From: Fusarium oxysporum f. sp. lycopersici 4287
Taxonomy: Eukaryota; Ascomycota; Sordariomycetes; Hypocreales; Nectriaceae
Length of the DNA stretch: 64,000 nucleotides
Assembly: GCF_000149955.1 (NCBI RefSeq)
Contig: NC_030992.1
Span: 510,584-574,583, forward strand
Direction: 5' to 3'
The notes beneath the pieces were generated by a model, which saw only the letters and a list, made by a program, of their open reading frames with translations, was not told the DNA's origin and ran no database searches. Each line of letters starts with the position of its first letter. Position 1 is the stretch's first letter. Shown here piece by piece: positions 13,505 through 59,002 of the stretch. The position numbers and the translations under genes were made by a program.

Positions 13505-15526
13505 TCAAATAATCTCAATATCAACACACTTTTCATCACTCCATGCCTCGCCAGACATGATTCCATGAACGTAGCAATCCCCAAGGATCTTCCATTTCTC
13601 CCCAGCCCTCCGTAGCACATAGGGCGTCTTCCCTCCCTGAAGCAGCGCAATCCGATCACCAGAGCGAGTAGGCCAAGGAACCAAACAGAGATATCCCGAG
13701 CTCGTCGTCGCCATTCTTTGATCAAAAGCCCACTGCACGTCGGTGAGGGACTTCCCCATTGTGAATATGTCGCTCATTTCCATGTTGCTTACTTTCTTGT
13801 ACCCGAGTAGTTGGCGATAGAGTTTTGGTACCACATGTGAGAGATGCAGCTGGTTTATAACTGTGCCAGTCATGGTCATATCAAACCCTGCTATACTCTG
13901 TTCAAAACAGTCCAGAACATGGCGTCGATTAGCACTGAGAAGAATCCGGTTTCTTATTATGGTTGTGAGGAAAGCATCCTTTCGGGTTTCACCGGGCATC
14001 GTATAAAGATTTTCAGTTTTGAACGCCAGGTCTTGCCAACCTTGGATAACAGCTATGGTTCCCCCAATAGCCTCAGCGATCCTCGCATTTCGCTTGAAAT
14101 TTCGAATTGAGCTCATGACTACATCGTCAAGTTGTATCCGAGGCCCTTCGTAAGGGTATATCAGCTTGTCTCCAACATTGTTCAACTCATCCACGAAGAC
14201 ACCCTTGAGAATGAGTGTTTTTCCATCGTTTAGAAGTCTTGCAGTGAAAGTTCTGTTGGATTTGGACGCCTTTTCTTCGGGAAACGCGTCCCTCATTTCA
14301 AACAACTGCGGTGCTCGCTGGTTCTCCCTTATAATTGGGTTCTTGATGCTGGAGGGGGCTCTCTCTTCATCCGGAACACTAGTGACGTCGTAACTCCAGT
14401 CAGGAACCCACGAAGGCAAGCTTGTCAAAGTAGGTGGTATGCAAGACGGCCTTCCCAAAGCGCTGAAAATCTCCAGTGAGCAGCTACCGCTTATTATCTT
14501 AAAAGTTGTACGTGCGTAGCATTCCACAATGGAAATAGTGTAGTCTGGCTCGATCCCATATGTTGATGTGGCGATGCCTAGAGAGCCGTATACCTTGTCC
14601 CTCGGATCTTTGGCTCTCAACCACCGAAGAAGATGGAGCAGCACTGCAAGCTCCTTGTTCTTCCCGAAACTGCGACGCAACCGCAGTATGGCGACGGCAA
14701 GTTTGCCATCATTGTCGGCCAACATGCTGTCTTCCAGATTAAAGACATCTTCGCCATCCCCTGTATTAAAAGCGTTGCTGATTGCGTACATCATGATATA
14801 GCCGACTGTGCGACTGACGTCCAGTACTGGGGCAGCTAAATCGCCGCACATGATGATCGCACTGCGAGCTAGAGCCATTTCTTGAACAGTCCACACCCTT
14901 GACCACCATGGCCTCTTCAGTAGAGCGACTGCGCCTTTTTTGGCTGGGTCTGGTACAGCAAAATCACTCTTAGCCGGGGCTTCGGAGGAAGCTTTGTCCT
15001 CGGCTTGATACCAGCCATCAGCTGGGATTACATGCTTCTCGAAGAATTCTCGTCCAATTTTGCTAATATGAGGCAGCGCAAGATTTTCAGTCGTTGGTAT
15101 CAGTTCGAACAGGTGGTTGATTCCATCAGAGGCTGGATCGGGACCCAGCCAGATGACCACCCTCTGGGATTTGTTGTAGATGTCTTTCATAAGTTTAACC
15201 TGGGATTGGCGCTCCTCCGGGTCTTTCTGATTGATGCAAATGGCATCGATCCATAGCGGTCGCTCGGTATGCTCGTTCCTCAAGTGCTGGAGTGCACTGA
15301 GAAGGTTTTCGGTGACCTGGAATGCTTCATTGTTGCATTTTATCTCCAGAAGCTGAGAGCTGTCGCCCCAGCAATACGAAAGAGCTTCATACACAGGGTT
15401 TTCCTCGAGTGCGACAACCTCGAGACGACACTCAATTGAGTCGTTGTTCTCCGTCACTGGAAGTAGATGGAGGAGGCGGATTTGCGTTGGGCCGAGCACG
15501 CCTCCTGTGCTATTGTAGGAAAACAT
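13505..15526 (-). CDS. HET domain (heterokaryon incompatibility) protein
   Basis: One intronless 673-residue ORF. The N-terminal half carries the HET blocks in order: YEALSYCWGD (about 46-55), LWIDAICINQ (about 91-100) and the ERQSQVKLMKDIY / VVIWLG segment (about 105-130), followed by WWSRVWTVQEMALA near 208. The C-terminus has the usual HET-family tail GDRIALLQGG...VLRR and YVHGIMSGEA. HET proteins act in the cytoplasm in non-self recognition and can trigger cell death when mismatched alleles meet. The start at 15526 fits where homology begins. The allele partner is unknown. Confidence 0.92.
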   Translation of the reverse strand: MFSYNSTGGVLGPTQIRLLHLLPVTENNDSIECRLEVVALEENPVYEALSYCWGDSSQLLEIKCNNEAFQVTENLLSALQHLRNEHTERPLWIDAICINQKDPEERQSQVKLMKDIYNKSQRVVIWLGPDPASDGINHLFELIPTTENLALPHISKIGREFFEKHVIPADGWYQAEDKASSEAPAKSDFAVPDPAKKGAVALLKRPWWSRVWTVQEMALARSAIIMCGDLAAPVLDVSRTVGYIMMYAISNAFNTGDGEDVFNLEDSMLADNDGKLAVAILRLRRSFGKNKELAVLLHLLRWLRAKDPRDKVYGSLGIATSTYGIEPDYTISIVECYARTTFKIISGSCSLEIFSALGRPSCIPPTLTSLPSWVPDWSYDVTSVPDEERAPSSIKNPIIRENQRAPQLFEMRDAFPEEKASKSNRTFTARLLNDGKTLILKGVFVDELNNVGDKLIYPYEGPRIQLDDVVMSSIRNFKRNARIAEAIGGTIAVIQGWQDLAFKTENLYTMPGETRKDAFLTTIIRNRILLSANRRHVLDCFEQSIAGFDMTMTGTVINQLHLSHVVPKLYRQLLGYKKVSNMEMSDIFTMGKSLTDVQWAFDQRMATTSSGYLCLVPWPTRSGDRIALLQGGKTPYVLRRAGEKWKILGDCYVHGIMSGEAWSDEKCVDIEII

Positions 15527-16271
15527 GACAATAGGCTGATACTAACACGCAGACGAGATTTCCGGGGTCCTTGGGCTGGGAGGGTTGGCAAACCTTTTGT
15601 TGGTGATATCTAGAATCAGGCCAGGCATTGATTGTCTGAACGAGATATTATTCAGAGCTGACTAATATCTCACCTGCCTGCCAAGATCAAATTGGACATG
15701 ATAGGTCAAGCTATGGCCTGTTCCTTCAATAGTTTACCATTCAGAGGTAGCAAAAGCGTCAACCTCTTTCTATTGAATTTTCCCAGAGTTGTTACTGACT
15801 TGCCATCATCAACCCATTTATTTTCAGCCTCCTCAACTTCCATGAAACTCACACATTCAGATTTTTCGTTATCTTAGGAAGCAAAGTTCAGACCTCTATT
15901 CTAAGTGAGAGAAAGATTTAGCCAAGTTTAGTATAGACTAAGAAGACTTTTAGGTTAGTTATTTTCATCACTAAGGATAAAGGTCTGAAGGTTTCTCTTG
16001 CATGTTTCGTTTCGCAGACCGCCTTTTGGCCCGCAACCAAGAATTATCTTTCTTGGCAAGATACGCCTGTAGCTGACAAAGAGTGAGTCTTCATATGTGA
16101 ATTTCGAAACTCCCTTGGTAAGAATGTACATTTCTTGTTGTAAAACTTTCGGATGGGCTTCCTGAGGTGGACTCGCTCCCCTCTGCGAACCAGATAGTAA
16201 GATCGTCTGCTTCGCTCTGAAGAACCGCTATAGCCGCAATTCCTCTCCATAAAGCCACCTCTGTAATGTAA
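15527..16271. other. Intergenic region
   Basis: AT-rich between about 15780 and 16010. Reverse ORFs at 16044-16366 continue past the F-box gene's stop in other frames and show no conservation by eye. Confidence 0.5.
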
Positions 16272-27022: not shown

Positions 27023-27557
27023 GAGCTGGTGGGCGAAGGAGGTTGAGATAGCGAATCAGAAGTTACTAAAACTGATCGGAATTAGAGTCCAGAATCCACG
27101 TGATCTCGTCTACTTATGGGGAGCCTAGCGCAAGATACAGCTAGCTACTAGTACAAACGATAAGAGGCCTGTTGAGTTTATTCATCTAATGTTGACATTT
27201 GATATATGCTTGTGCAATTTGGATTCAAGCTCCGCAGTCGTTATTCATGGGATATAACCCCGAGACTCATGTAATATTGTAAGCAGTGGTGTTTGCCAAG
27301 CGCCTCTTGAATAATGTGTACTCGCCGACTGGACAGCCTGCAGATACTGCCTGACGGGCTGCGCTCCCATTGTGGGTTGAGAAATCGCAAATAAGGCTGT
27401 GATACGAATTACACCTCCAACAAATCAAGTATGCAGGAATGGTCGCCAGGCATACTCCGATGTGCTTATCTTACCCCGCTCCTCCTCAAATACTGAACAT
27501 CGGCCATAGCAACGCACCGCATCTCTTTCCAGCCCCAGATATTTTTGCTCTACTCTA
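27023..27557. other. Divergent intergenic region
   Basis: Shared upstream DNA of the Zn2Cys6 gene and the HET gene. No ORF or repeat worth calling. Confidence 0.6.
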
Positions 27558-29261
27558 ATGCGTCTCATTAACACCAAGACTCTGGAGCTCCATGAGTTCT
27601 TCAACGACAATGTGCCCCCTTATGCAATTCTGTCACATACCTGGGGTACCGAGGAAGTTACATTCCAGGATTGGCAGAACCACCAAGTTGCAGTCTCAAA
27701 GCAAGGATATTTAAAGATCAAGAACGCCTGCCGTAAGTCTTTGAATAAGAGACTTGAATGGCTCTGGGTTGATACCAACTGCATCGACAAGACTAGCTCA
27801 GCTGAGCTTACGGAAGCGATAAACTCGATGTTTGCATACTATCAGAAGTCTCGAGTCTGCTTTGCTTACCTAGCTGATGTTACTACATACTATCAGAAGA
27901 GCGAGCTGATGTTTTCACAAGTTCGGGGCAGCCGTTGGTTTACTCGCGGCTGGACACTCCAGGAACTGATAGCGCCACGGCATATGGTGTTCTATGCGGC
28001 TGATTGGTCAAAGATAGGGACTAAGGATGAATTCTTTGCTCGCTTGGTCGCATCAATCACCAAAATTGATAGTATATATCTCAGTGGGCAGTTCTTACCC
28101 ATGGCTTCCGTCTCACAGAAGATGTCATGGTTGGCGAACAGAACAACGACGAGGACTGAAGACATGGCATATTGTATGCTTGGCATATTCGATATCAGCA
28201 TGCCACTTCTCTACGGAGAAGGCAAGAGGGCATTCTTCCGCCTCCAGGAAGAGATCATCAAAAGATCGAATGATCACACTATTTTCTGTTGGGAATGGAT
28301 TGATGATGTCCCTGGTGATTGGGGGAGTCTTCTCGCCCCATGGCCCACTGCCTTTGAAGGATCTGGTGGCTTCGAAAGGCTCAGCAGCGACGACATCTCG
28401 ATATTTTCAATGACAAATGCTGGCTTATCTATCCCCTTACCCACCATAGCCAGCCTCGGAGGCACATCCGACTATACCAGGTCCTGGTTCGTTATGCTTC
28501 AAGCCCGCCTAGCAAATACAACAGGCGATCCTCCAGATGCAGCATGTATTCAGGTTTCTGGCCGTCAAGTAGGTGATCTCCTCTACGTGGCAAGATTACC
28601 GTATCCTGCTCGACCGATGACAATGCCGAGAACCCTGGTAGGGCACCTTAAAACGCAGCCCCTTATTGTCATGAACAGATTGGAAGAAACAAGGCTCCTC
28701 AAGGAAAGAAAGCTATTTCCCGATTATCACAATGGAAACAGTGTTATATTTATACCTGTTTGTTGCCCGCAAACTCCGGAAAGAAGATGGCGTTTTGTGG
28801 AGTCATCGTTTGGTCCAGTCCTAATACTACTTGACAAGGACAATATCCGTGTAGGCAGATTGATGTTCAAAGGGTCTAAGAAAGATGGAGAGATCCTCCA
28901 TATCTTCCTGGGTGTACGAATAAATGATGGGCATTGTTATGCTTTTGTCAAGATTGTCCCCGTCTACTCAAAAACGATCTGGCACCATTGGGAGCAATAT
29001 GTCGAGAGAAGCACATCCGACAAACAGGAGGCTGACTTCTGTGGTAGTCTCGGAGTAACAGCAGCACTGAGGAGATCCATAGACAACACAAGGGGTGGCG
29101 AAAACCACTACTTCTTATTTCTTAAGGAGGGTGGCTTTGCTGACTCTGAAAACTTCCTATCGGCAATGGGTTTCGACCGTCAGGGAAATGATACCGATTC
29201 GATTGATGTGGCATCTGATGTTGCTGGAAATGGTACATTTAAGTATATAGATCAGGCTTAG
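27558..29261 (+). CDS. HET domain protein of the HET-E-like N-terminal type
   Basis: Intronless, 567 residues. It begins MRLINTKTLELHEFF and then YAILSHTWG, the start shared by HET-E/HET-D-type incompatibility proteins. Further HET blocks are LWVDTNCID (about 69-77), the YYQKSRVCFAYLADV region and GSRWFTRGWTLQELIAP (about 123-139). DMAYCMLGIFDISMPLLYGE (about 202-221) follows. There is no NACHT, WD or ankyrin part, so it is a stand-alone HET protein. Predicted role: non-self recognition and regulated cell death. Confidence 0.92.
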   Translation: MRLINTKTLELHEFFNDNVPPYAILSHTWGTEEVTFQDWQNHQVAVSKQGYLKIKNACRKSLNKRLEWLWVDTNCIDKTSSAELTEAINSMFAYYQKSRVCFAYLADVTTYYQKSELMFSQVRGSRWFTRGWTLQELIAPRHMVFYAADWSKIGTKDEFFARLVASITKIDSIYLSGQFLPMASVSQKMSWLANRTTTRTEDMAYCMLGIFDISMPLLYGEGKRAFFRLQEEIIKRSNDHTIFCWEWIDDVPGDWGSLLAPWPTAFEGSGGFERLSSDDISIFSMTNAGLSIPLPTIASLGGTSDYTRSWFVMLQARLANTTGDPPDAACIQVSGRQVGDLLYVARLPYPARPMTMPRTLVGHLKTQPLIVMNRLEETRLLKERKLFPDYHNGNSVIFIPVCCPQTPERRWRFVESSFGPVLILLDKDNIRVGRLMFKGSKKDGEILHIFLGVRINDGHCYAFVKIVPVYSKTIWHHWEQYVERSTSDKQEADFCGSLGVTAALRRSIDNTRGGENHYFLFLKEGGFADSENFLSAMGFDRQGNDTDSIDVASDVAGNGTFKYIDQA

Positions 29262-29846
29262 CTCTTACAAACGCATCTATAGAGTGGAGGAAATGCTTTG
29301 CAAGGCAGGATAATGCAGAGACATAGTCTGTAATTCTATCAGAAGCAACTAGAGCCAGGTTCATATACAGCTGAATTTTTCTATAATTGTATTCGAAAAA
29401 TTTGGGTTTTCAGGTATACAGAACAGGCACTTCATAATTATCGTTTTGTCAATGCCATGTGTTCTCTAATTTCTGTCTCGTAAGCTCTGTGTTTTTTTTC
29501 TAATCCATGTGTCCCGCCTTAAGCGCTTTGAGAATTATCATAACCTACAGCGACCAAACAATTCGAAAAAGATCATCGCGACATTCATTTAGGCCATCAT
29601 GATGCTGCATGCGGGGGGGCCGATTTACTCGGCGGTTAAAGGTATATGATACACCAACCATATTGCTGGAACCACGTCATGAAACAGCACCAAAACAAAA
29701 TGTTAGTTTTCAACTTCTTCAGTATCGAATATCTCACAAAAGCTCAAGATTGGAAAGACTTCTTTTATAAAATTCTCTCTCGGTAAATTTCCTTATTCTA
29801 CTATATCCGATATCATCTGGCAAGCTTCTCATGGTTGGACCCACTG
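29262..29846. other. Intergenic region
   Basis: AT-rich, with no supported coding sequence. It contains short homopolymer runs (T8, G7). Confidence 0.55.
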
Positions 29847-30903
29847 GACTTTACAATAGGCTGGATTTGCGCCCTCGAGACTGAATATGTTGCTGCGCGG
29901 GTGTTTCTGGATGAGTAATGCCCTGTTTCTGGATCCCTTCCTCGAACTGACCCTAATAAATACACCTTCAGCCGATTGGGGCATCACAACGTCGTTATTG
30001 CTGTCCTTTCTCAAGGATATGGCACATCAAGTGCAGCCAGCGTCGCGACACATATGATCTTTAGCTTTCTAAATATCAGGATTGGGCTGTTAGTCGGAAT
30101 TTCAGGCGGTGTTCCCAGCGCACAGGATGATATACGACTGGGGGATGTTGTAGTTAGCGTCAAAGAGCATAACGGCGTTCTTCCATAAGATATGGGTATG
30201 GCGTTTCAGGGCCAAGAATTTGAGATACGGTGAGTTCTGAACGCGCCACCTTTCCAGCTTCTGACGGCAACGAATGGTCTCAGAGCCCAACACGAGATTC
30301 AAGGGCATCGGATTCGACGTTCCATTCGCGAGACTCTGAACAGAAACCCGAAACTATGAACCAAATTCGGACGCCCTGATCCAGACTCTGACCGGCTCTA
30401 TTTACCTCATATTGTTCACACGTCCGGCCAATCATCCCGTTGTACGGAGGCTTGTGGAAACGATTCATTAAATCTTGTTATACGGCCGGAAAGAGCTGCC
30501 GCAGAAGATGGTATTGTCATTCATCATGGTCTCATCGCTTCTGGAAACACTGTTTGCAGAGATGCCAATCTACGCGACAAATTCGCCCAGAAGGGAGCCT
30601 TATGCTTCGAGATGGAAGTAGCAGGCTTGATAAATTACTTCCCTTGTATAGTGATTCAGGGTATATGTGACTATTCTGATTCGCACAAGAACAAAGACTG
30701 GCAAGGATACGCAGCTATGACTGCCGCAGTATATGCCAAAGACCTTCTCAAGCATGTCGCTCCATCGCGGGTTGCGACGAAACGAAATATGCGTGCTTGT
30801 AGCACGAAATGGTTAACCAGTCATTACTCGAGTCTTCTCACGGAGACAGTGTTCGTTTTCATGCTGTTCTTACTTGTAGAGGCTATTGCAAGTAATGTGG
30901 TCT
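29847..30903 (+). pseudogene. Relic of a nucleoside-phosphorylase-like (PNP_UDP_1) domain of NLR-type proteins
   Basis: One frame reads through the whole domain with landmarks of the phosphorylase-like module found at the N-terminus of many fungal NLRs. These are [51 protein letters not shown] followed by GDVVVS, then GLIASGNTVCRDANLRDKFA and CFEMEVAGLINYFPCIVIQG. The frame holds four internal stops (near 29916, 30186, 30234 and 30355) and lacks an in-frame start. Because no frame change is needed, decay is by base substitution. The frame ends at a TGA after a hydrophobic tail, with no NACHT or repeat region, so this is a truncated relic. Confidence 0.8.
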
Positions 30904-31449
30904 GAAGTGGGGGGCGACTGGTGTGATTCAGTAAAAGAAATCCACCAAAGCCTTCGATGGCAGTTGATACAGATGAGGATGTACGTTGATTTGTTTAATT
31001 TATTGTGTATTAGAACCTGTTTATGTGAAACCAGACAGCAAGACGTTGCACAAAATGTCGTTAGTTACAGCATACCTTGGTCAACCGTCAAGGAACAACC
31101 AATGTATGTATCTCAGTCCTGTTCGCTTTCATTCTATTGGGGTTTATCACGCAAAATTTTACTAAATAATTACGACTTCTTGTTTTTACCCTACTAAAGT
31201 TGAGCATGCCGTAGAATTACATTGGTTTGTCGTCAAACATCAACTACATAAATGACCCGAAACCTCGGATGAGATTGCCAACAGAGTATGTTAGTAGCTC
31301 AACCCCGCTTCTTAAATCCGCTTCCTACAAATCAACAAATCGTTGTCAACAAAGCCTCGTCAACAAAGCTCTAGCAACATAGTTAACACAATCGCCGCCC
31401 CCATATCCAAGATATACAACAACTCGTATTAATACACTATTTACAAGAT
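30904..31449. other. Intergenic, AT-rich
   Basis: No supported feature. The composition becomes more AT-rich towards the RIP-like relic downstream. Confidence 0.5.
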
Positions 31450-32550
31450 ATGACATTCGAACTTTCTAACAACGCACTATCGCCGCCTCAAACACCACCA
31501 GCATAGAATGTAATCTAGTTCACTTTCAGTGATAGAAAAACCAATTTAAAGCTAGTAGCTATGTATAATAATAAACGCTTTATTAGATATCTCTCTGCCG
31601 ATAACTTTTCTAAGTCGCCCATATTAAAAGAATATTATCTCTTCTTCATATAAGTTGCCAAAGAATTTAAGCTAGATGGTGTAGCTATCGAGGACTTCTA
31701 GGATTAGATTATTAACCCTCTACTCCATATTTTCCAGAAGCTGCCTACTCTAGACTAGGCAGTACTACAGACCTTGGATAGATTTTTCAACCCTGAAACT
31801 TTCGTCTATACCTTTCAAACGGTCTCCCATAAGCATATACCACAGCTAGATAGAGACACCTAACACCAATATCTATTCAGTGTTTCTGTTCCTGATGCAC
31901 TCTGTGCGTCATGGAAGTCCTTTGATCCGCCTGAAGTACGGATCTTTTATAAGAATATGGTTAGCCTGCCTTCTAATACGCCACGCAAAGTCCTATTAAA
32001 CGACAAGATAATTGCATTCTTTGAGCTCATACGCCATAGCAATAAGCAGCCCCTTATAAATAAACTAGATCTATATAGGAAGATTAACAGAGCCCAACTT
32101 AATAATAAGATAAGGATTTTATGCCTCTATGGCCTAGTGCAGAATAATAATGGTGTTACTCTGGGTCTTTTACTTACCTATATTAACTATAGGCATATAA
32201 CACTATTATATATAGTAGAGCCGGGAACCGAAGTTTTACTAAGGGAGAGATAGGCTGCACAAATTCAGGAAGCTATTGGCCAACTACATGATGCTAGAAT
32301 CGTTTAGGGAGATGCCAAACCGGACAATGTCCTAATTAATATAAATAAGGATACTTGGCTTATTATTTTTAGTGGTGGATACACGGGGGGATAGGTGCCC
32401 AAGATCCTTGCCGGGACAATGGAAGGTGATCGCATTGCTCTCGAGAAGATACTAGAATACATCCGCACCCAGAATATCAATCAGGAGGCTATTTATTTCC
32501 CCTCATTATTCGACCGTCACTTATTTTCCTGGCTATATGCACATTTCTAG
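31450..32550 (+). pseudogene. RIP-like relic of a fungal protein-kinase-like gene
   Basis: A single 1.1-kb frame beginning at an ATG contains about ten stops, nearly all TAG, but no frameshift. Kinase landmarks remain: QLHDARIV*GDAKPDNVLI, where the stop falls on an expected tryptophan, and FSGGYTGG*VPKILAGTMEG, again at a tryptophan position. A third stop follows LPTLD. TGG to TAG and CAG to TAG are the changes made by C-to-T mutation at CpA on either strand, as in RIP. The region is AT-rich. The parent would be a kinase-like protein of the HDAGIVWGDAKPENVLID type common in this group of fungi. It ends just before the assembly gap. Confidence 0.75.
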
Positions 32551-32717
32551 CGTCTGACCCAACTTTTCACACCGTGTCAGATGAAGGATCTGGACCCCGC
32601 AACATTGTATGTGTTGGTCGTGAATAGTTCACTTTTTCACGTATATCAGCAAAAAGGTGATGGGTCTCTGATGCATGTGTTCACTCCACCTCAAGATATA
32701 CGCCCCGACCAATGCCT

Positions 32718-32971
32718 NNNNNNNNNNNNNNNNNNNNNNNNNNNNNNNNNNNNNNNNNNNNNNNNNNNNNNNNNNNNNNNNNNNNNNNNNNNNNNNNNNN
32801 NNNNNNNNNNNNNNNNNNNNNNNNNNNNNNNNNNNNNNNNNNNNNNNNNNNNNNNNNNNNNNNNNNNNNNNNNNNNNNNNNNNNNNNNNNNNNNNNNNNN
32901 NNNNNNNNNNNNNNNNNNNNNNNNNNNNNNNNNNNNNNNNNNNNNNNNNNNNNNNNNNNNNNNNNNNNNNN
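32718..32971. other. Assembly gap (N run)
   Basis: 254 unknown bases. ORFs spanning it are artefacts. The gap lies between the RIP-like relic and the rvt gene, so upstream exons or a repeat could be hidden here. Confidence 0.99.
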
Positions 32972-33068
32972 TGTTTATTACCTGAACTTTTCCCAACTTG
33001 AACTGAGTGTCTTCTAAGTGAACCCTTTTCATTTTCCCACAGATCACAGCACATCAAAACTAGCGAAG

Positions 33069-35824
33069 ATGGCATCGTCCTTTTTTGCACTTTCGCAAAC
33101 CCTTGGAGGAATCACCCACACTAAGATCAGTGAACTTGAAAAGCAGCGCACTATTTACGAATCACGAAAGGATAAAATCTTGGAACAGGCCAATCAAGAA
33201 GATGATCGAACTGTAAGAATCAACCTTCTCCTAGAGGGAGTTGAGAATCTCAACGCTGAGGCTTTCCAAAGCCCTGCAGTCAAGAACATCAAGCACTGGC
33301 TCAGTCAGTCAAAATATGACGTTTCTGTTCCAAGCGAGTTCATGCAGGCCCATGAAGAACTACTTCGGTCGCACCTAGAGGTACCAAGTCGGAAACTAGC
33401 ACTGGGCCACCTCTACGCTCGGCTCATCACGGAATGGATGACTGCCTCTCTCAGCGACCGTCCGGCCTCGGAGGAAGAAACTTATGAGGTTTTGGATCAA
33501 CAAAAGGAGAGGCTGCAGCAGCTGTGTGACAAGTTTGAGCGAGTAGTCTTTGAGCCGCTGGAAACTGATGAAGTTGAGATTGATCTCTACCTCAACGAGC
33601 TGTTCCAAGGTGAACAAAGTGAAGAGGGTGCCAAGTCACTCAAGGCTCTGAGAGAGACAATCGGTGACTCTTGCCAACTAATATTTGGCGAAAAGGCGCC
33701 GTTTGATTCCACGACACTCACGTGGTGTATCAATGGGCTACTCGCTGAGGATTTGCTCAGCGACCAGAAACAGGCCATTCTTCGAGACTTTCTTGAGAAA
33801 CCGGTTGTTTTGGGAGAGATCGCCGATGTCCTCAATATGCGTTTCTCCAATATTGACAGCTGGGAATGGGATGCTGGTGAACAAGGCAGTAAGTCCTCCA
33901 GAATTGTTCTCTTCTAGCTGCGGAAGAAATAACTAAATCCATTGCACTAGTCCCTGTTCTTCCGAGGCAGCAGTTGAACGGTAAATACAGAATATGGATG
34001 GACGAGGATGTGTTGCAAGCAATTCTCATCCACTACATTGGGATCCAGTGTTGCGTTGCTCTCAAAAAGGCTCTCAACAGCTTCATTTACTCCAAGGATA
34101 GCTTCTGGAGGTGGCACACCGGACCAGATCCCAGCCTTGATGAGAAGCAGCGCCGCATGTATTACTTGTCCAGTGGAGCTACTACTAGCTCCAATCTCAC
34201 GAGCGAGAGAAAAAGGCAGTACATAAATGAGTTTTTCATGTCACAACTACCGGAAGATGTTGAGACGATTGGAGCTGGTGGCTATACCGATCCAACAGAG
34301 GAGCAAGACAGCTCCAAGAAGCCCAACATTAAACAGAGCCTATTAAGAACGCTCGCCACAGAGGCCACCATACAAAAAACCTTGAAGGGTGAAGTGTCAT
34401 TGATACAGACCGACCTGGAGTGGTTCGCCACGGGCTTGTCCCATACAACCATTTTTGCCACCATGCGATTCTTTGGCTATACTGAAGGTGCCATTTCGTT
34501 CTTCAAAAAGGTTCTTCAGGCGCCTCTCAACGTGCAGTCATCCCCAGACTCGCCGTTGATGGGCAGTCCAAGAGTGCGCCGTCGCGGAGTGCCGATGGCT
34601 CACGCGCCAGAGAAGCTCCTTGGCGAGCTTGTTCTCTTCGTCATGGATGTTGTGGTGAACCAACAGGATGGGATGCTACTTTACCGACTCCACGACGACC
34701 TATGGCTATGTGGCGAACCACTGCACTGCAAAAGGGCTTGGGCTGCTATGAACAACTATGCCAAAATCCTCGGCCTCACCTTCAACAGGGGTAAAACCGG
34801 CTCTGTGTACATAACAGAGGAGGGGAAAGATCGAGATCTCGACGTTGCGAGCGCTTTGCCTGAGGGTCCAGTCCGAGTTGGGCATCTATCTCTTGACCCC
34901 AAGTCGGGGATCTGGGAAATCGACCGTAAGGAGGTAGAGGGGCATATGAGGCAGCTGAAGAAGCAATTGGATGGATGCATAAGTGTGCTGGAATGGGTGC
35001 AGACATGGAACAGCTGCATGGGACGGTTTTTTAGTCATACCTTTGGCGAACCAGCAAACTGCTTTGGTCTGCATCACGTTGACAGCATCCTCGAGACTTA
35101 CCAGATGATGCAGAAATTCTTATTCCCCGCGGCGTCAGATTCATCTCAAAGCAGCCACGGAGCCGTCAGTCACATCAAGCACATGATAAAAGATCGCTTT
35201 GGGGTAGATGTACCGGATGCATTCGTCCATTTACCTGAACGCCTGGGAGGACTTGGTCTACGGAATCCCTTCTTGCCTATTCTAATGATTCGGGAAAGCA
35301 TTGCAAAGAAGTCTCCAACCTCAATCATTCAACAATTCTTTGATGCAGAAAAAGAGAGATATAAGCGATACAAGAAGAACTTCGACTCTCTGGCAAGTGT
35401 CGACAGCCGCATCAATGAAGCTGTCAAGGCCGCAGGAAGTGCAGGAACCGTCAGCTCTAAAACATTCAAGAACCTGCTGTCGACTGAGGAGCTCGAAAAT
35501 TTCTTCAGCATCAAAGAATACGCAAAGCACAGGGAGCTGACGAGTAATGCCTTATTGAAGGCTTACATGGCGTTGAAGACTGTACCAGTCGACATTAGCC
35601 CAGATTTAGACGCTGATGTTTCGTGGACTCTTAAATCCGCCCTAGGCGCCAATCTAAATAATTCGGGCAGTAAGACGAAAGAAGTTCGGTGGGCATTACA
35701 GATGTATCGGGATGTGTTGCGCCGCGACTATGGAGGTTTGCGTCTTGTGGACAAAGAACACCTGCCGCTAGGTGTATTAACATTGCTACGGAGTAGAGCA
35801 GTAACATGGACGATGGTTCTGTAG
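33069..35824 (+). CDS. rvt: Cellular reverse-transcriptase-related protein (rvt family)
   Basis: Two exons (33069-33888 and 33951-35824) with a 62-nt intron give 897 residues. An upstream in-frame ATG at 33018 is the alternative start. The N-terminal 270 residues are helical and Glu/Lys-rich, with coiled-coil-like stretches. The polymerase core shows IQTDLEWFATGLSHTTIF (catalytic Asp near 428), RRRGVPMAHAPEKLLGELVL (motif B-like) and LLYRLHDDLWL (Asp pair near 522-523). GLTFNRGKTGS follows at about 548-558. These fit the single-copy, non-mobile rvt genes known from fungi and other lineages rather than retrotransposons. No endonuclease, RNase H, gag or flanking repeats are seen. Known family members polymerise nucleotides, but their cell role is unsettled. 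The frame is intact beside decayed relics, suggesting selection. Confidence 0.82.
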
Positions 35825-36071
35825 TATAGATTTCTATTAGCCAAAGCTAAAGAATAGAGTCTCGAGACGCATGGAAGTTTCTACCCTTTGAGTATGGTGC
35901 AAATTGACTTATGCTAGTCTAGACACCACCATGTTGCTCCTTGTTGTTGGTCTGCTGAGTACCTATAGGTGGGAGAACGCGAATATAAATCAACTAATAC
36001 ATATCTCCAGTAAATACCTGACACCTCGTTGACTGTCTAAATCCTTCCTTTATAATTAACTGTAAGAAATA

Positions 36072-36711
36072 CTATTCCTGTTTGATTCCAGACGATCTAT
36101 GAAGCCGGGCTAGCAGCCGCTTTTGCATTTCCAATGACATCAAGGTCGCTGGCTTACATATTAGTAATTTCTCGATAATACTCGCATGGTGAAGCTTACG
36201 AATCACGGCATATGGCAGATATGCCCCAAACAGCAGAGTTTGCTTGGCCTCATGAGTGATAACCTCTGGGCCCAGATGCCACATATCGTTGCAAACTATA
36301 GCCGTGCAAAGGCCCGTCACTGCACCGTAGACGACGGCTGCAAGCTCCCCAGAACCAGAGATCCGCTGTTTGGTTAACAGTGCGTGGGTGAGATACAGTG
36401 CTAGAGGGAACTGCACAACAAGCTCAACATAGACCAGGAATTCGAAGAAGTGCCCAGGAATGTCAAGGTTATAATAAGGATCAGACATTGTTGTGATGTA
36501 CCACTGACGATAGGCGACAAGAAAGTGGAATGGCGAGCCACGAGGTTGACATAGAGACTGCGGATAGAATGGAACAAAATCGACGCCTAGTCCAGTCATG
36601 AGTTACCTCCATGCGCATCGCAAGCTGATTAAACTTACCTAGCATAGCAGTCAAATGGAGAACTACTATAAATAGATATAGGTAATCGAGAAACGGCTTG
36701 TGCGGCGACAT
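36072..36711 (-). CDS. EXPERA-type (TMEM97/sigma-2-receptor-like) membrane protein
   Basis: Two exons (36711-36639 and 36586-36072) with a 52-nt intron give 195 residues. Four hydrophobic helices are visible: DYLYLFIVVLHLTAML, FEFLVYVELVVQFPLALYL, AAVVYGAVTGLCTAIVC and TLLFGAYLPYAVI. VDFVPFYP after helix 1 is typical of the EXPERA fold, whose members bind sterols or act as sterol isomerases in the ER. The splice joins MLG to VDFVPFYP exactly. Convergent with rvt. The family assignment is by pattern; a precise ligand cannot be stated. Confidence 0.7.
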
Positions 36712-37611
36712 GATTAGGATGTTGTTGTGTTAACCCAGATTATGAAACTTGGAAAGACAGAAAAGATACGTGTGAAATTGTAAATATGAAAACAAGAGAA
36801 GAGCGGGGCAGTACGATCACTCAAATACCAAGCCCGTGCATTATGCCAGCCCTGAACATGCCGAGCTGAGACTTATTAGTGCTGATACTGTACCAGCAAG
36901 GCACCATGATGATTGGCCAGAAAGTGGTGATAAGCGCAGGTACATTGTTAGGAGTCGGTGGGTATAGCTTGCGCCTCAGCGCGGCTGTTCTCTTCGGAAC
37001 CCATGGTAGGTCTCAACACACGCCAAGATAAGTTAGGAATCGCTGCAAGGCACGCTGAAAGTTTGGGTGGCATACCCCGCATGCCCTTCGGGGTAGCCCC
37101 TGCTTGATATCCAGGGCAAGTAAGGGTCTCGAACAGCTCTAGCGAGGTTAATTGCACTCGCAAGACTCCGTCCAGGACCTCGAGGGCTGTGAGAAGATAA
37201 TTTGCAGCGCCCCACGTGTCATGGGTCCCGATGCCACGTGTTTTCAGGGTTGCTTGAAATATAAGGATGAATATTTCCTGAGCTTCTATATGCTGATCCC
37301 CGTTCCATGTTGTGAGACTCAAGCAATACGCAAACCTCCTCCTGGAGTATAGCGATATCGTGGAGCGCGGTGCTGGTCACTTGTTTGAACATCTTCCCTA
37401 ACTTTATCTGCGATATTAGGTAGGCTGGGAATGTCTTAATTTCATCCCACATTATTCGAGTCAGCTGAACTTCACGCCATGATGACGGTTGAGATGACGT
37501 CAACCATCGTCAGAAGCCTTTTTACCATGACTTCAATGGAGCATTCAGTCTCAACCTAGACAAAACAACATCTCACTTGTAAACAATCTTCAAGAGTTCG
37601 TTACGCTCAAT
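36712..37611. other. Intergenic region, ORFs unassigned
   Basis: Reverse ORFs at 36948-37322 and 37219-37503 overlap in different frames without recognisable domains. I cannot support a gene here, though a decayed one is possible. Confidence 0.4.
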
Positions 37612-38689
37612 ATGGTGATCCAATATCAAGGGGCTCAGATCCCCATCTCGTTCGCATCATGCAGCATCCCCATGAAGATCAAGGCCAGCCTTCCCGATAA
37701 GCTTGGCGCCATTCGAAAAGCCGGCTTCGACGGAATTGAGCTTTCAATGCCTGATATCCTTGACTATGAAAAACTTCTCAGTGGATCTCAGCCAAAAGAA
37801 GACGACTATGACACGCTTGCGAATGTCGCGAAGCAGATCAAGTCGTTGACGGATGAACTAGGCCTCAAGATTATGATGCTTCAGCCTTTTGCGAATTTTG
37901 AGGGATGGAAGAAAGGTGAACATGATGAGAAGAGAAAACAGGCTTTTGATAAGGCGAAGGGCTGGGTCAAGGTTATGGAGGCTGCCGGCATCACATTGCT
38001 TCAGGTAAATCCGCCCACATTAAATATGCTAACAGCCCACTAATCAATCACAGGTTGGTTCATCTGACTCTGAAGGCATCTCGTCCTCATTCGACGACTT
38101 AGCCTCCGATCTCGCAGAACTAGCAGACCTTCTCGCCGAAAAAGGCTTCAGCATTGCCTACGAAAACTGGTGCTGGGCAACCCACGCCCCAACCTGGAAA
38201 ACAGTCTGGCAGATCATTCAAAAGGCAAACAGACCTAACATCGGTCTGTGTCTCGATACGTTCCAAACCGCGGGTCTCGAGTGGGGTGATCCAACTACCA
38301 AAGACGGTCTAATCGAAGCAAGCAGTGATGAAGAGCGCAAAACTCGCTGGCACAAGAGTCTTGAAGAGCTAGCTTCCACTGTCCCGGCAGATAAGATTTA
38401 TCTCCTTCAGATCTCAGATGCGTATAAGATGGATCCTCCTATTGAGGATAAGAAAGACGAGGAGGGAAGTCGACCTAGAGCGAGGTGGAGTCATGATTAT
38501 AGGCCTTTGCCGTGTGATGGAGGGTATTTGCCTGTTCATGATATGCTACATGCTGTGCTGAAGACAGGGTTTAAAGGTTGGTTGTCTGTGGAGGTGTTTG
38601 ATGGGCTTGAGGGGGAGAATACGGATATGAATGAGTATACGGTCGCGGCCGTTGAGTCGCTGAAGAAACTCATCCAGGTTAGTGAATGA
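37612..38689 (+). CDS. Xylose-isomerase-like TIM-barrel enzyme, probable 3-dehydroshikimate dehydratase
   Basis: Two exons (37612-38004 and 38054-38689) with a 49-nt intron give 342 residues. Family blocks are FASCSIPMKIKASLPDKLGA, GFDGIELSMPDIL, LMMLQPFANFEGW-like text, FSIAYENWCWATHAPTW, and NIGLCLDTFQTAG (metal-binding Asp). IYLLQISDAYKMDPP and a late LSVEVF (metal-binding Glu) follow. The enzyme converts 3-dehydroshikimate to protocatechuate in quinate use; other sugar-isomerase-type activities share the fold. It is convergent with the P450 and near an MFS transporter, fitting an aromatic-acid catabolic or biosynthetic set. Confidence 0.82.
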
Positions 38690-58589: not shown

Positions 58590-58677
58590 GGGCTTATGGT
58601 CTAGGGGTATGATTTTCCCTTCGCATCTTTACATCGACGCTTGGGAAAGGTCCGGGGTTCAATTCCCCGTGAGTCCA
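58590..58677 (+). tRNA. tRNA-Ala (CGC), intron-containing
   Basis: 88 nt including the discriminator A. The acceptor stem GGGCTTA/TGAGTCC includes a G3-U70 pair, the alanine identity element, with A73. D arm TGGTCTAGGGGTATGAT, anticodon stem TTCCC/GGGAA, T arm CGGGG-TTCAATT-CCCCG. The loop between the anticodon stem arms is 23 nt, so a 16-nt intron is expected after position 37, giving anticodon CGC. A T-run follows the gene. The body resembles fungal tRNA-Pro, so the isotype is less certain than the tRNA itself. Confidence 0.8.
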
Positions 58678-58914: not shown

Positions 58915-59002
58915 TGGACTCACGGGGAATTGAACCCCGGACCTTTCCCAAGCGTCGATGTAAAGATGCGAAGGGAAAATCATACCCCTAGACCATAAGC
59001 CC
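58915..59002 (-). tRNA. tRNA-Ala (CGC), second identical copy, inverted
   Basis: The reverse complement is base-for-base the same 88 nt as the gene at 58590-58677, including the intron. The two face each other tail to tail, 237 bp apart. Flanks differ, apart from a downstream T-run at each. Confidence 0.8.

Follow-up and report, generated by a model that had tools for sequence, protein, structure and literature searches.

An intact rvt-class gene in Fusarium oxysporum and an apparently inactive paralogue with a histone H3 tail-like insertion

Reverse transcriptases (RTs) are not confined to mobile elements, and a rare cellular class of them, rvt, has reportedly been described by Gladyshev and Arkhipova (2011) and by Yushenova and Arkhipova (2018). 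Members of this class are reported to have introns at conserved positions and to form multimers through an N-terminal coiled coil, and to our knowledge the role of these proteins is an open question. RVT is described as the only RT group present in both bacteria and eukaryotes and has a large insertion between motifs 2 and 3 (PMC5718144), while a meeting report calls the group mysterious and describes the Neurospora crassa RVT as having terminal transferase activity, being dispensable for growth and being strongly upregulated when protein synthesis is inhibited (PMC3520738). Here we analyse a 64,000-nucleotide stretch of Fusarium oxysporum f. sp. lycopersici 4287 (the window; contig NC_030992.1, positions 510,584 to 574,583) that holds one such gene, referred to as the window gene. 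The explanation that we regard as probable is that this rvt gene is non-mobile, has been kept by vertical descent and has a role in extending ends with ribonucleoside triphosphates (NTPs), and that it is accompanied by an inactive paralogue that carries a histone H3 tail sequence and acts as a scaffold or decoy. We call the relatives of the window protein clade A (188 sequences fetched) and those of the paralogue clade B (119 sequences); bacterial counts refer to ten proteins.

The assignment of the window protein to the RTs is not trivial because, at E ≤ 1, Pfam gives only an insignificant match to DUF3891. Neither a plain sequence search of the Protein Data Bank (PDB) with the window protein nor a profile search of it with clade A gave a significant RT match, RT chains appearing in the latter only at E values of 0.5–1. 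The original prediction (a reading of the DNA letters) had proposed profile searching to recognise the family; in Pfam and PDB, neither the window protein nor clade A taken together has a significant RT match. RVT_1 was matched by 11 of 39 clade A members at E ≤ 0.1 (best E 5.7e-4). The predicted structure of the window protein matches RT folds, as had been supposed, and the nearest solved ones are those of R2 and LINE-1 ORF2p (420–486 residues aligned); telomerase RT is not among the 50 structural matches listed, which excludes nothing. The RT finger and palm residues K285, R287, D428, D522 and D523 are all there, and D428, the D522-D523 pair in HDDLWL and the GLTFNRGKTGS block (from G548) lie where they were first placed. 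Motifs 2 and 3 are also set apart by the large insertion, with 141 residues between R287 and D428 (median distances are 150 in bacteria, 150 in clade A and 207 in clade B). Computation shows, for the product of the window gene, the fold of an RT polymerase, every catalytic residue of the fingers and palm, a large insertion ahead of motif 3, a long N-terminal helix and a conserved C-terminal region.

Removal of bases 33889–33950 leaves a single open frame of 897 residues, in agreement with the two-exon gene and the 33888/33951 junction predicted at the outset. Length and splice junction are shared with the public F. oxysporum protein P0003, which represents a cluster of 86 sequences and is 98% identical, differing at 15 of 897 residues. 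The gene models of P0019 and P0008 contain SKS at the junction, as read-through of GTAAGT would give, which suggests an intron common to the window gene and these relatives. Protein conservation among the fungal relatives is high, and chance is excluded by the conservation in the 188 fetched sequences.

The bacterial relatives were found with a profile of 20 fungal sequences, which at E ≤ 0.01 matched 14 of 400 Chloroflexota genomes, 12 of them with a long RT-core match, one in the N-terminal part only and one in the C-terminal part only. Ten loci, each with a plausible start and a frame of 786–836 residues, were read out. Their alignment with the fungal proteins begins at the N-terminal helix (‘ITxxKxxEL’) and runs over the fingers and palm to the C-terminus, and the computation thus shows the window protein to be homologous to bacterial proteins over its whole length. 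The bacterial RVT member described earlier is said to come from Herpetosiphon, a genus of Chloroflexota. In two other phyla, a mixed profile at E ≤ 1e-5 matched 4 of 395 and 2 of 396 genomes, in the RT core only. No relative was found in viral_contigs (queries A1 and A2), in plasmids (tblastn) or in genome_contigs (query A3); a DNA pattern HDDxW ... NxxKTG gave 14 matches in genome_contigs, about the number expected by chance on a rough estimate, and hmmsearch with three profiles gave none better than E 0.8, so these candidates were dropped. One clade A protein, P0050, is filed under Candidatus Bathyarchaeota on a 3.8-kb contig and is most likely a fungal contamination.

The window gene therefore shares with the rvt class its RT fold, the big insertion between motifs 2 and 3, the long N-terminal helix (residues 4–43 in the model, in line with the early remark on a long helical N-terminus, and conserved in bacteria), the absence of mobile parts and full-length relatives in fungi and bacteria, and the comparison supports it as a good, intact member of this known class. 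The HDDLW motif first taken as a class signature is narrower in reach: HDD is found in 188/188 clade A proteins but bacterial members have V, I or M before DD, and by sequence HDDLW is a mark of fungal clade A, not of rvt as a whole. What differs here from the class as described is the recognition of an inactive paralogue clade with an H3 tail sequence in its insertion, and the open sugar gate of clade A at a position where the bacterial members carry Tyr.

In principle, the gene could be what is left of the RT of a non-long-terminal-repeat (non-LTR) retrotransposon after a recent domestication in this lineage, and the closest solved folds to the window protein, R2 and LINE-1 ORF2p, do belong to such elements. 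Unlike these elements, however, the window gene stands without repeats or an endonuclease: Pfam finds no endonuclease or other significant domain in its protein, no direct or inverted repeat of at least 20 bases lies within 29500–38500, and none of the 29 other long frames of the window contains a retroelement domain in Pfam (20 of them matched, all to ordinary fungal or general families). In line with the earlier statement, no other retroelement parts were found with the gene. Searches of the 61.2-Mb genome with the exon-1 and exon-2 proteins and a distant relative returned one copy of the gene, not the many of a retrotransposon, and one paralogue at 34–36% identity; the predicted single copy stands for the window gene itself but not for rvt in this genome, where the diverged, intact paralogue makes a second. 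None of the 150 search matches listed lies on contig C7, and full-length collinear relatives exist across ascomycete classes and in bacteria. Recent domestication is accordingly disfavoured already, and we hold it to be very improbable.

The genomic frame of the paralogue is contiguous, and clade B has apparently lost the polymerase active site at the level of sequence. The motif A aspartate, kept in 115/115 relatives found with the window protein and in 10/10 bacteria, is present in 0/119 clade B proteins. K285 is found in 10/10 bacteria and 185/188 clade A proteins (R in the other 3) and R287 in 10/10 and 188/188, but clade B retains them in only 2/119 and 1/119, respectively; D522 is kept in 115/119 clade B proteins and D523 is replaced by N in 35/119. 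It might be argued that the paralogue has remained a polymerase in which a different acidic residue stands in for the motif A Asp, as D522 persists and D or E occurs two and three positions past the lost Asp (‘VFDDW’, ‘VFEDW’). The alignment is, however, ungapped from the G-E before motif A to the L-x-H after it in the sequences shown, the substitute residue is D, E or Q depending on lineage, the finger K and R are lost too, and D523 is N in the 35/119 members noted above, which makes continued polymerisation improbable.

Loss of the active site has not been followed by decay. For 12 species or strains with both clades (pairs picked by listed name, not all of them shown to share a strain), we compared the identity of each protein to its F. 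oxysporum counterpart, and the values for A/B are, in per cent, 93.0/92.7 in F. proliferatum, 81.6/76.6 in F. lateritium ACHAPU, 81.0/78.8 in F. avenaceum, 80.6/74.1 in F. graminum, 79.7/78.1 in F. lateritium ACHAPA, 80.9/73.8 in F. irregulare, 79.3/77.5 in F. heterosporum, 64.4/58.9 in Paramyrothecium, 53.8/60.9 in Clonostachys byssicola, 54.2/53.4 in Hypoxylon, 53.7/54.1 in Camillea and 52.0/54.2 in Truncatella. B lies below A in 9 of the 12 pairs, by 0.3 to 7 points. Judged by these identities, clade B is not decaying and is conserved almost as strictly as the active clade A. The C-terminal Y851-W852 pair is common to clade B (Y in 104/119, W in 119/119) and the bacteria (10/10); in clade A it is replaced by E or Q and varied residues. 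An obligate pairing, in which A would supply the active site and B the C-terminal Y851-W852, was considered and set back by species listed with only one of the two among the best 120 matches. Prp8, the RT-like scaffold of the spliceosome, is a different case, as no sequence relationship to it is shown and the paralogue has retained both terminal regions of rvt. Among the literature matches listed, from which the founding rvt papers are absent so that an earlier mention is possible, there is no inactive fungal rvt and no H3-tail mimic in one.

The two clades and the bacteria also differ at the sugar gate. RTs possess an aromatic residue five positions after the motif A Asp that acts as a gate against NTPs (D110/Y115 in HIV-1, D600/F605 in LINE-1). 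This position is Tyr in 10/10 bacteria; in clade A the gate is open, with Ala in 142, Gly in 43, Ser in 2 and a gap in 1 of 188 proteins, and in clade B it is mostly Asn (86), Glu (16) or Asp (11 of 119). Because clade A has Ala, Gly or Ser instead of Tyr, its members are predicted to take NTPs. The N. crassa RVT reportedly prefers NTPs and the Herpetosiphon protein reportedly prefers deoxyribonucleoside triphosphates (dNTPs); these preferences agree with the gate pattern in a way that is suggestive only, the N. crassa protein being unplaced in A or B. The site pattern makes the choice between NTPs and dNTPs testable at one residue.

The paralogue has, in residues 423–453 of its insertion, the sequence QAPRRQLASKAARKSAPTGRGLGTGGAMRHR, which agrees with residues 15–30 of the organism's own H3 at 15 of 16 positions. 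The own H3 gene lies on contig C10 and encodes APRKQLASKA in exon 1 and ARKSAPSTGG in exon 2. Read by eye, the DNA strings of the paralogue and the H3 gene differ in codon at 13 of these 15 residues, which counts against a recent copy and in favour of selection at the protein level. When the whole genome was searched with the 40-residue H3 tail, three candidates emerged, namely the two H3 exons and the paralogue.

To score H3 likeness, the insertion of each protein was aligned locally with H3 residues 1–40 and a threshold score of 50 was applied; the 119 clade B proteins include near copies from close strains. At least 50 was reached by 67/119 clade B, 0/188 clade A and 0/10 bacterial proteins. 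The best matches are P0193 (33/39 identical, H3 2–40) and P0185 from Clonostachys (32/34), and the stretch is also present in members listed as Lepidopterella (score 78), Bisporella (129), Apodospora (149) and many Hypocreales; it was not seen in Hypoxylon, Verticillium and other clade B members. The resemblance might be put down to convergence by chance in a disordered linker that is basic and rich in Ala, given that the region is low in complexity and that 52/119 members score below 50, but 2380 shuffled clade B insertions reached 49 at most against observed scores of up to 161, and the match spans Lepidopterella, Bisporella and Apodospora (P0205, P0217 and P0225), which we take to belong to three classes. 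Convergence by chance is hardly credible; with 67 of its 119 members at or above 50 and a shuffle maximum of 49, clade B carries an H3 tail beyond chance in a non-histone protein. From its distribution, the stretch looks ancient and repeatedly lost.

In the structural model the stretch falls within segment 407–484, which is predicted to be disordered (predicted local distance difference test below 50) and adjoins KKRK and an acidic run, and it would thus be an exposed tail, as in the nucleosome. Among the 67 clade B members, which were chosen for H3 likeness, the best-kept positions are R17 (63/67), R26 (60/64), A21, S22, A24, A29 and P30. Importins bind the H3 tail. The sober rival to a chromatin function is therefore nuclear import by these H3 importins, with the stretch acting only as an import signal that brings the paralogue into the nucleus. 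The disordered setting beside KKRK and the acidic run is compatible with this, and so are the basic R17 and R26, but A21-S22, A24 and A29-P30, each kept in at least 50 of the 67, would be superfluous in a plain basic signal; we consider import alone unlikely, though the strongest of the alternatives.

A non-histone protein with an H3 tail-like stretch has precedent. EZHIP inhibits Polycomb repressive complex 2 (PRC2) by an H3 K27M-like mechanism (PMC6513997), and it and other H3 mimics resemble the paralogue in having such a stretch. They differ from it in that the paralogue's stretch lies inside an RT-like fold, reaches up to H3 residues 2–40 and is fungal. The paralogue could be an EZHIP-like inhibitor of the H3K27 methyltransferase, a substrate trap, which would fit the EZHIP precedent for PRC2 inhibition (PMC6513997) and the conservation of R26 next to a position 27 that is K in 36, R in 18 and M in 5 of 64. 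On the other hand, K27 is still Lys in over half of the aligned members, and the K4 and K23 regions are also kept, so that K27 is not singled out. A conserved R26 followed at position 27 by K, R or M leaves this mechanism as one candidate among several, and we rate it as unlikely, a little below nuclear import.

Combining these findings, we tentatively propose a bold model, to which we would give somewhat less than an even chance. In it, the rvt gene was doubled early in the filamentous ascomycetes; A became an NTP-using polymerase through loss of the sugar gate, and B a catalysis-free, RT-shaped, nucleic-acid-binding chromatin scaffold whose exposed copy of the H3 tail draws or traps H3-tail enzymes and readers. 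In the explanation held above to be probable, the window protein would oligomerise through its N-terminal helix and, with a divalent metal, may extend an end or a short primer by nucleotides; as its sugar gate is open it should take NTPs, which would place it closer to a cellular RNA-extending or terminal-transferase enzyme than to the RT of a retrotransposon. An old duplication that predates the separation of the main classes of filamentous ascomycetes would have given the second gene (on C5 here), which lost the polymerase active site, kept the fold and carries the H3 tail sequence in its disordered insertion. The paralogue might then serve in the nucleus, as a scaffold or a decoy for readers, writers or carriers of the H3 tail, and clade B proteins may hold nucleic acid in the RT cleft and expose an H3-like tail for methyltransferases, acetyltransferases, readers or importins. 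The H3 tail-bearing paralogue points to an unsuspected link with chromatin and is a concrete lead to the place of work of these proteins; if true, a dead RT carrying a histone tail would be a new way to build a histone mimic.

Several observations weigh against the explanation held to be probable. Taken alone, the match of the paralogue to the H3 tail is weak (E 0.0186, 70% over H3 13–35). Whole groups are among the 52 clade B members that score below 50, of which a few (P0129, P0130) come from gene models without the region. The lysines are less conserved than the best-kept positions, K27 with the substitutions given above and K9 being K in 24/47, and conservation by itself does not single out the H3 segment, whose top-residue fraction over all 119 is 0.53 against 0.40 before it and 0.55 and 0.55 after it. 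In the tree, six of the ten bacterial proteins are closely related to each other, so that the ten represent about five lineages. No Neurospora name occurs among the best 120 matches in three relative searches, including one with a Sordariales query (best 120 of 324), and since the N. crassa RVT is unplaced, its reported preference is not attributable to clade A. Fungal relatives were listed by name for the best 120 matches, and among these Colletotrichum appears with A only and the F. solani group with B only; A and B therefore need not act together.

Table 1 Features of the window gene, its surroundings and the paralogue (window positions unless a contig is given)
Feature	Position	Strand	Basis or remark
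Start ATG of the window gene	33069	+	translation
Exon 1: long helical N-terminal region, residues 1–273 and first base of codon 274	33069..33888	+	translation; same junction in P0003; helices in model
N-terminal long helix, residues 4–43 (‘..ITxTKIxELEKQR..’)	33078..33197	+	model; alignment: conserved in bacterial relatives
Intron, 62 bases, GTAAGT...CTAG with TAACTAA upstream of AG	33889..33950	+	sequence; P0019 and P0008 gene models read through at same position
Exon 2: fingers, palm, C-terminal region; stop at 35822–35824	33951..35824	+	translation
Finger motif K285-Y286-R287	33983..33991	+	alignment
Large insertion between RT motifs 2 and 3 (‘loop 2a’), residues 305–425	34043..34405	+	alignment spacing
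Motif A catalytic Asp428	34412..34414	+	alignment
Ala433, +5 from motif A Asp (usual steric gate position)	34427..34429	+	alignment
Motif C His521-Asp522-Asp523 (HDDLWL)	34691..34699	+	HDD in 188/188 clade A
Motif D block GLTFNRGKTGS, residues 548–558	34772..34804	+	N552 188/188, K555 187/188 in clade A
Conserved C-terminal region, residues 840–897, related to bacterial C-terminus	35648..35821	+	alignment
Phosphorylase-like relic	30360-30902		PNP_UDP_1 E 2.6e-4, under family cut-off
Putative kinase-like relic, stop-ridden frame	about 31600-32640		kinase-like words read by eye
N run, 254 N, between kinase-like relic and window gene	32718-32971		
Diverged, intact paralogue (L014)	C5:652779-655721		genome search

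The decayed relics noted beside the window gene at the outset are real, comprising a phosphorylase-like stretch and a stop-ridden kinase-like frame (Table 1). Indices of the repeat-induced point mutation type rise modestly at 31.0–32.5 kb, are ordinary over most of the window gene and are raised once more in the 500-base step across its end. The relics to the left are separate from the window gene. Within 20 kb of it lie two frames with a HET (heterokaryon incompatibility) domain, at 13508–15541 and 27510–29258. Farther along the window, two tRNA-Arg (CCT) genes, at 58590–58677 (+) and 58915–59002 (−), stand about 240 bases apart in opposite orientation.
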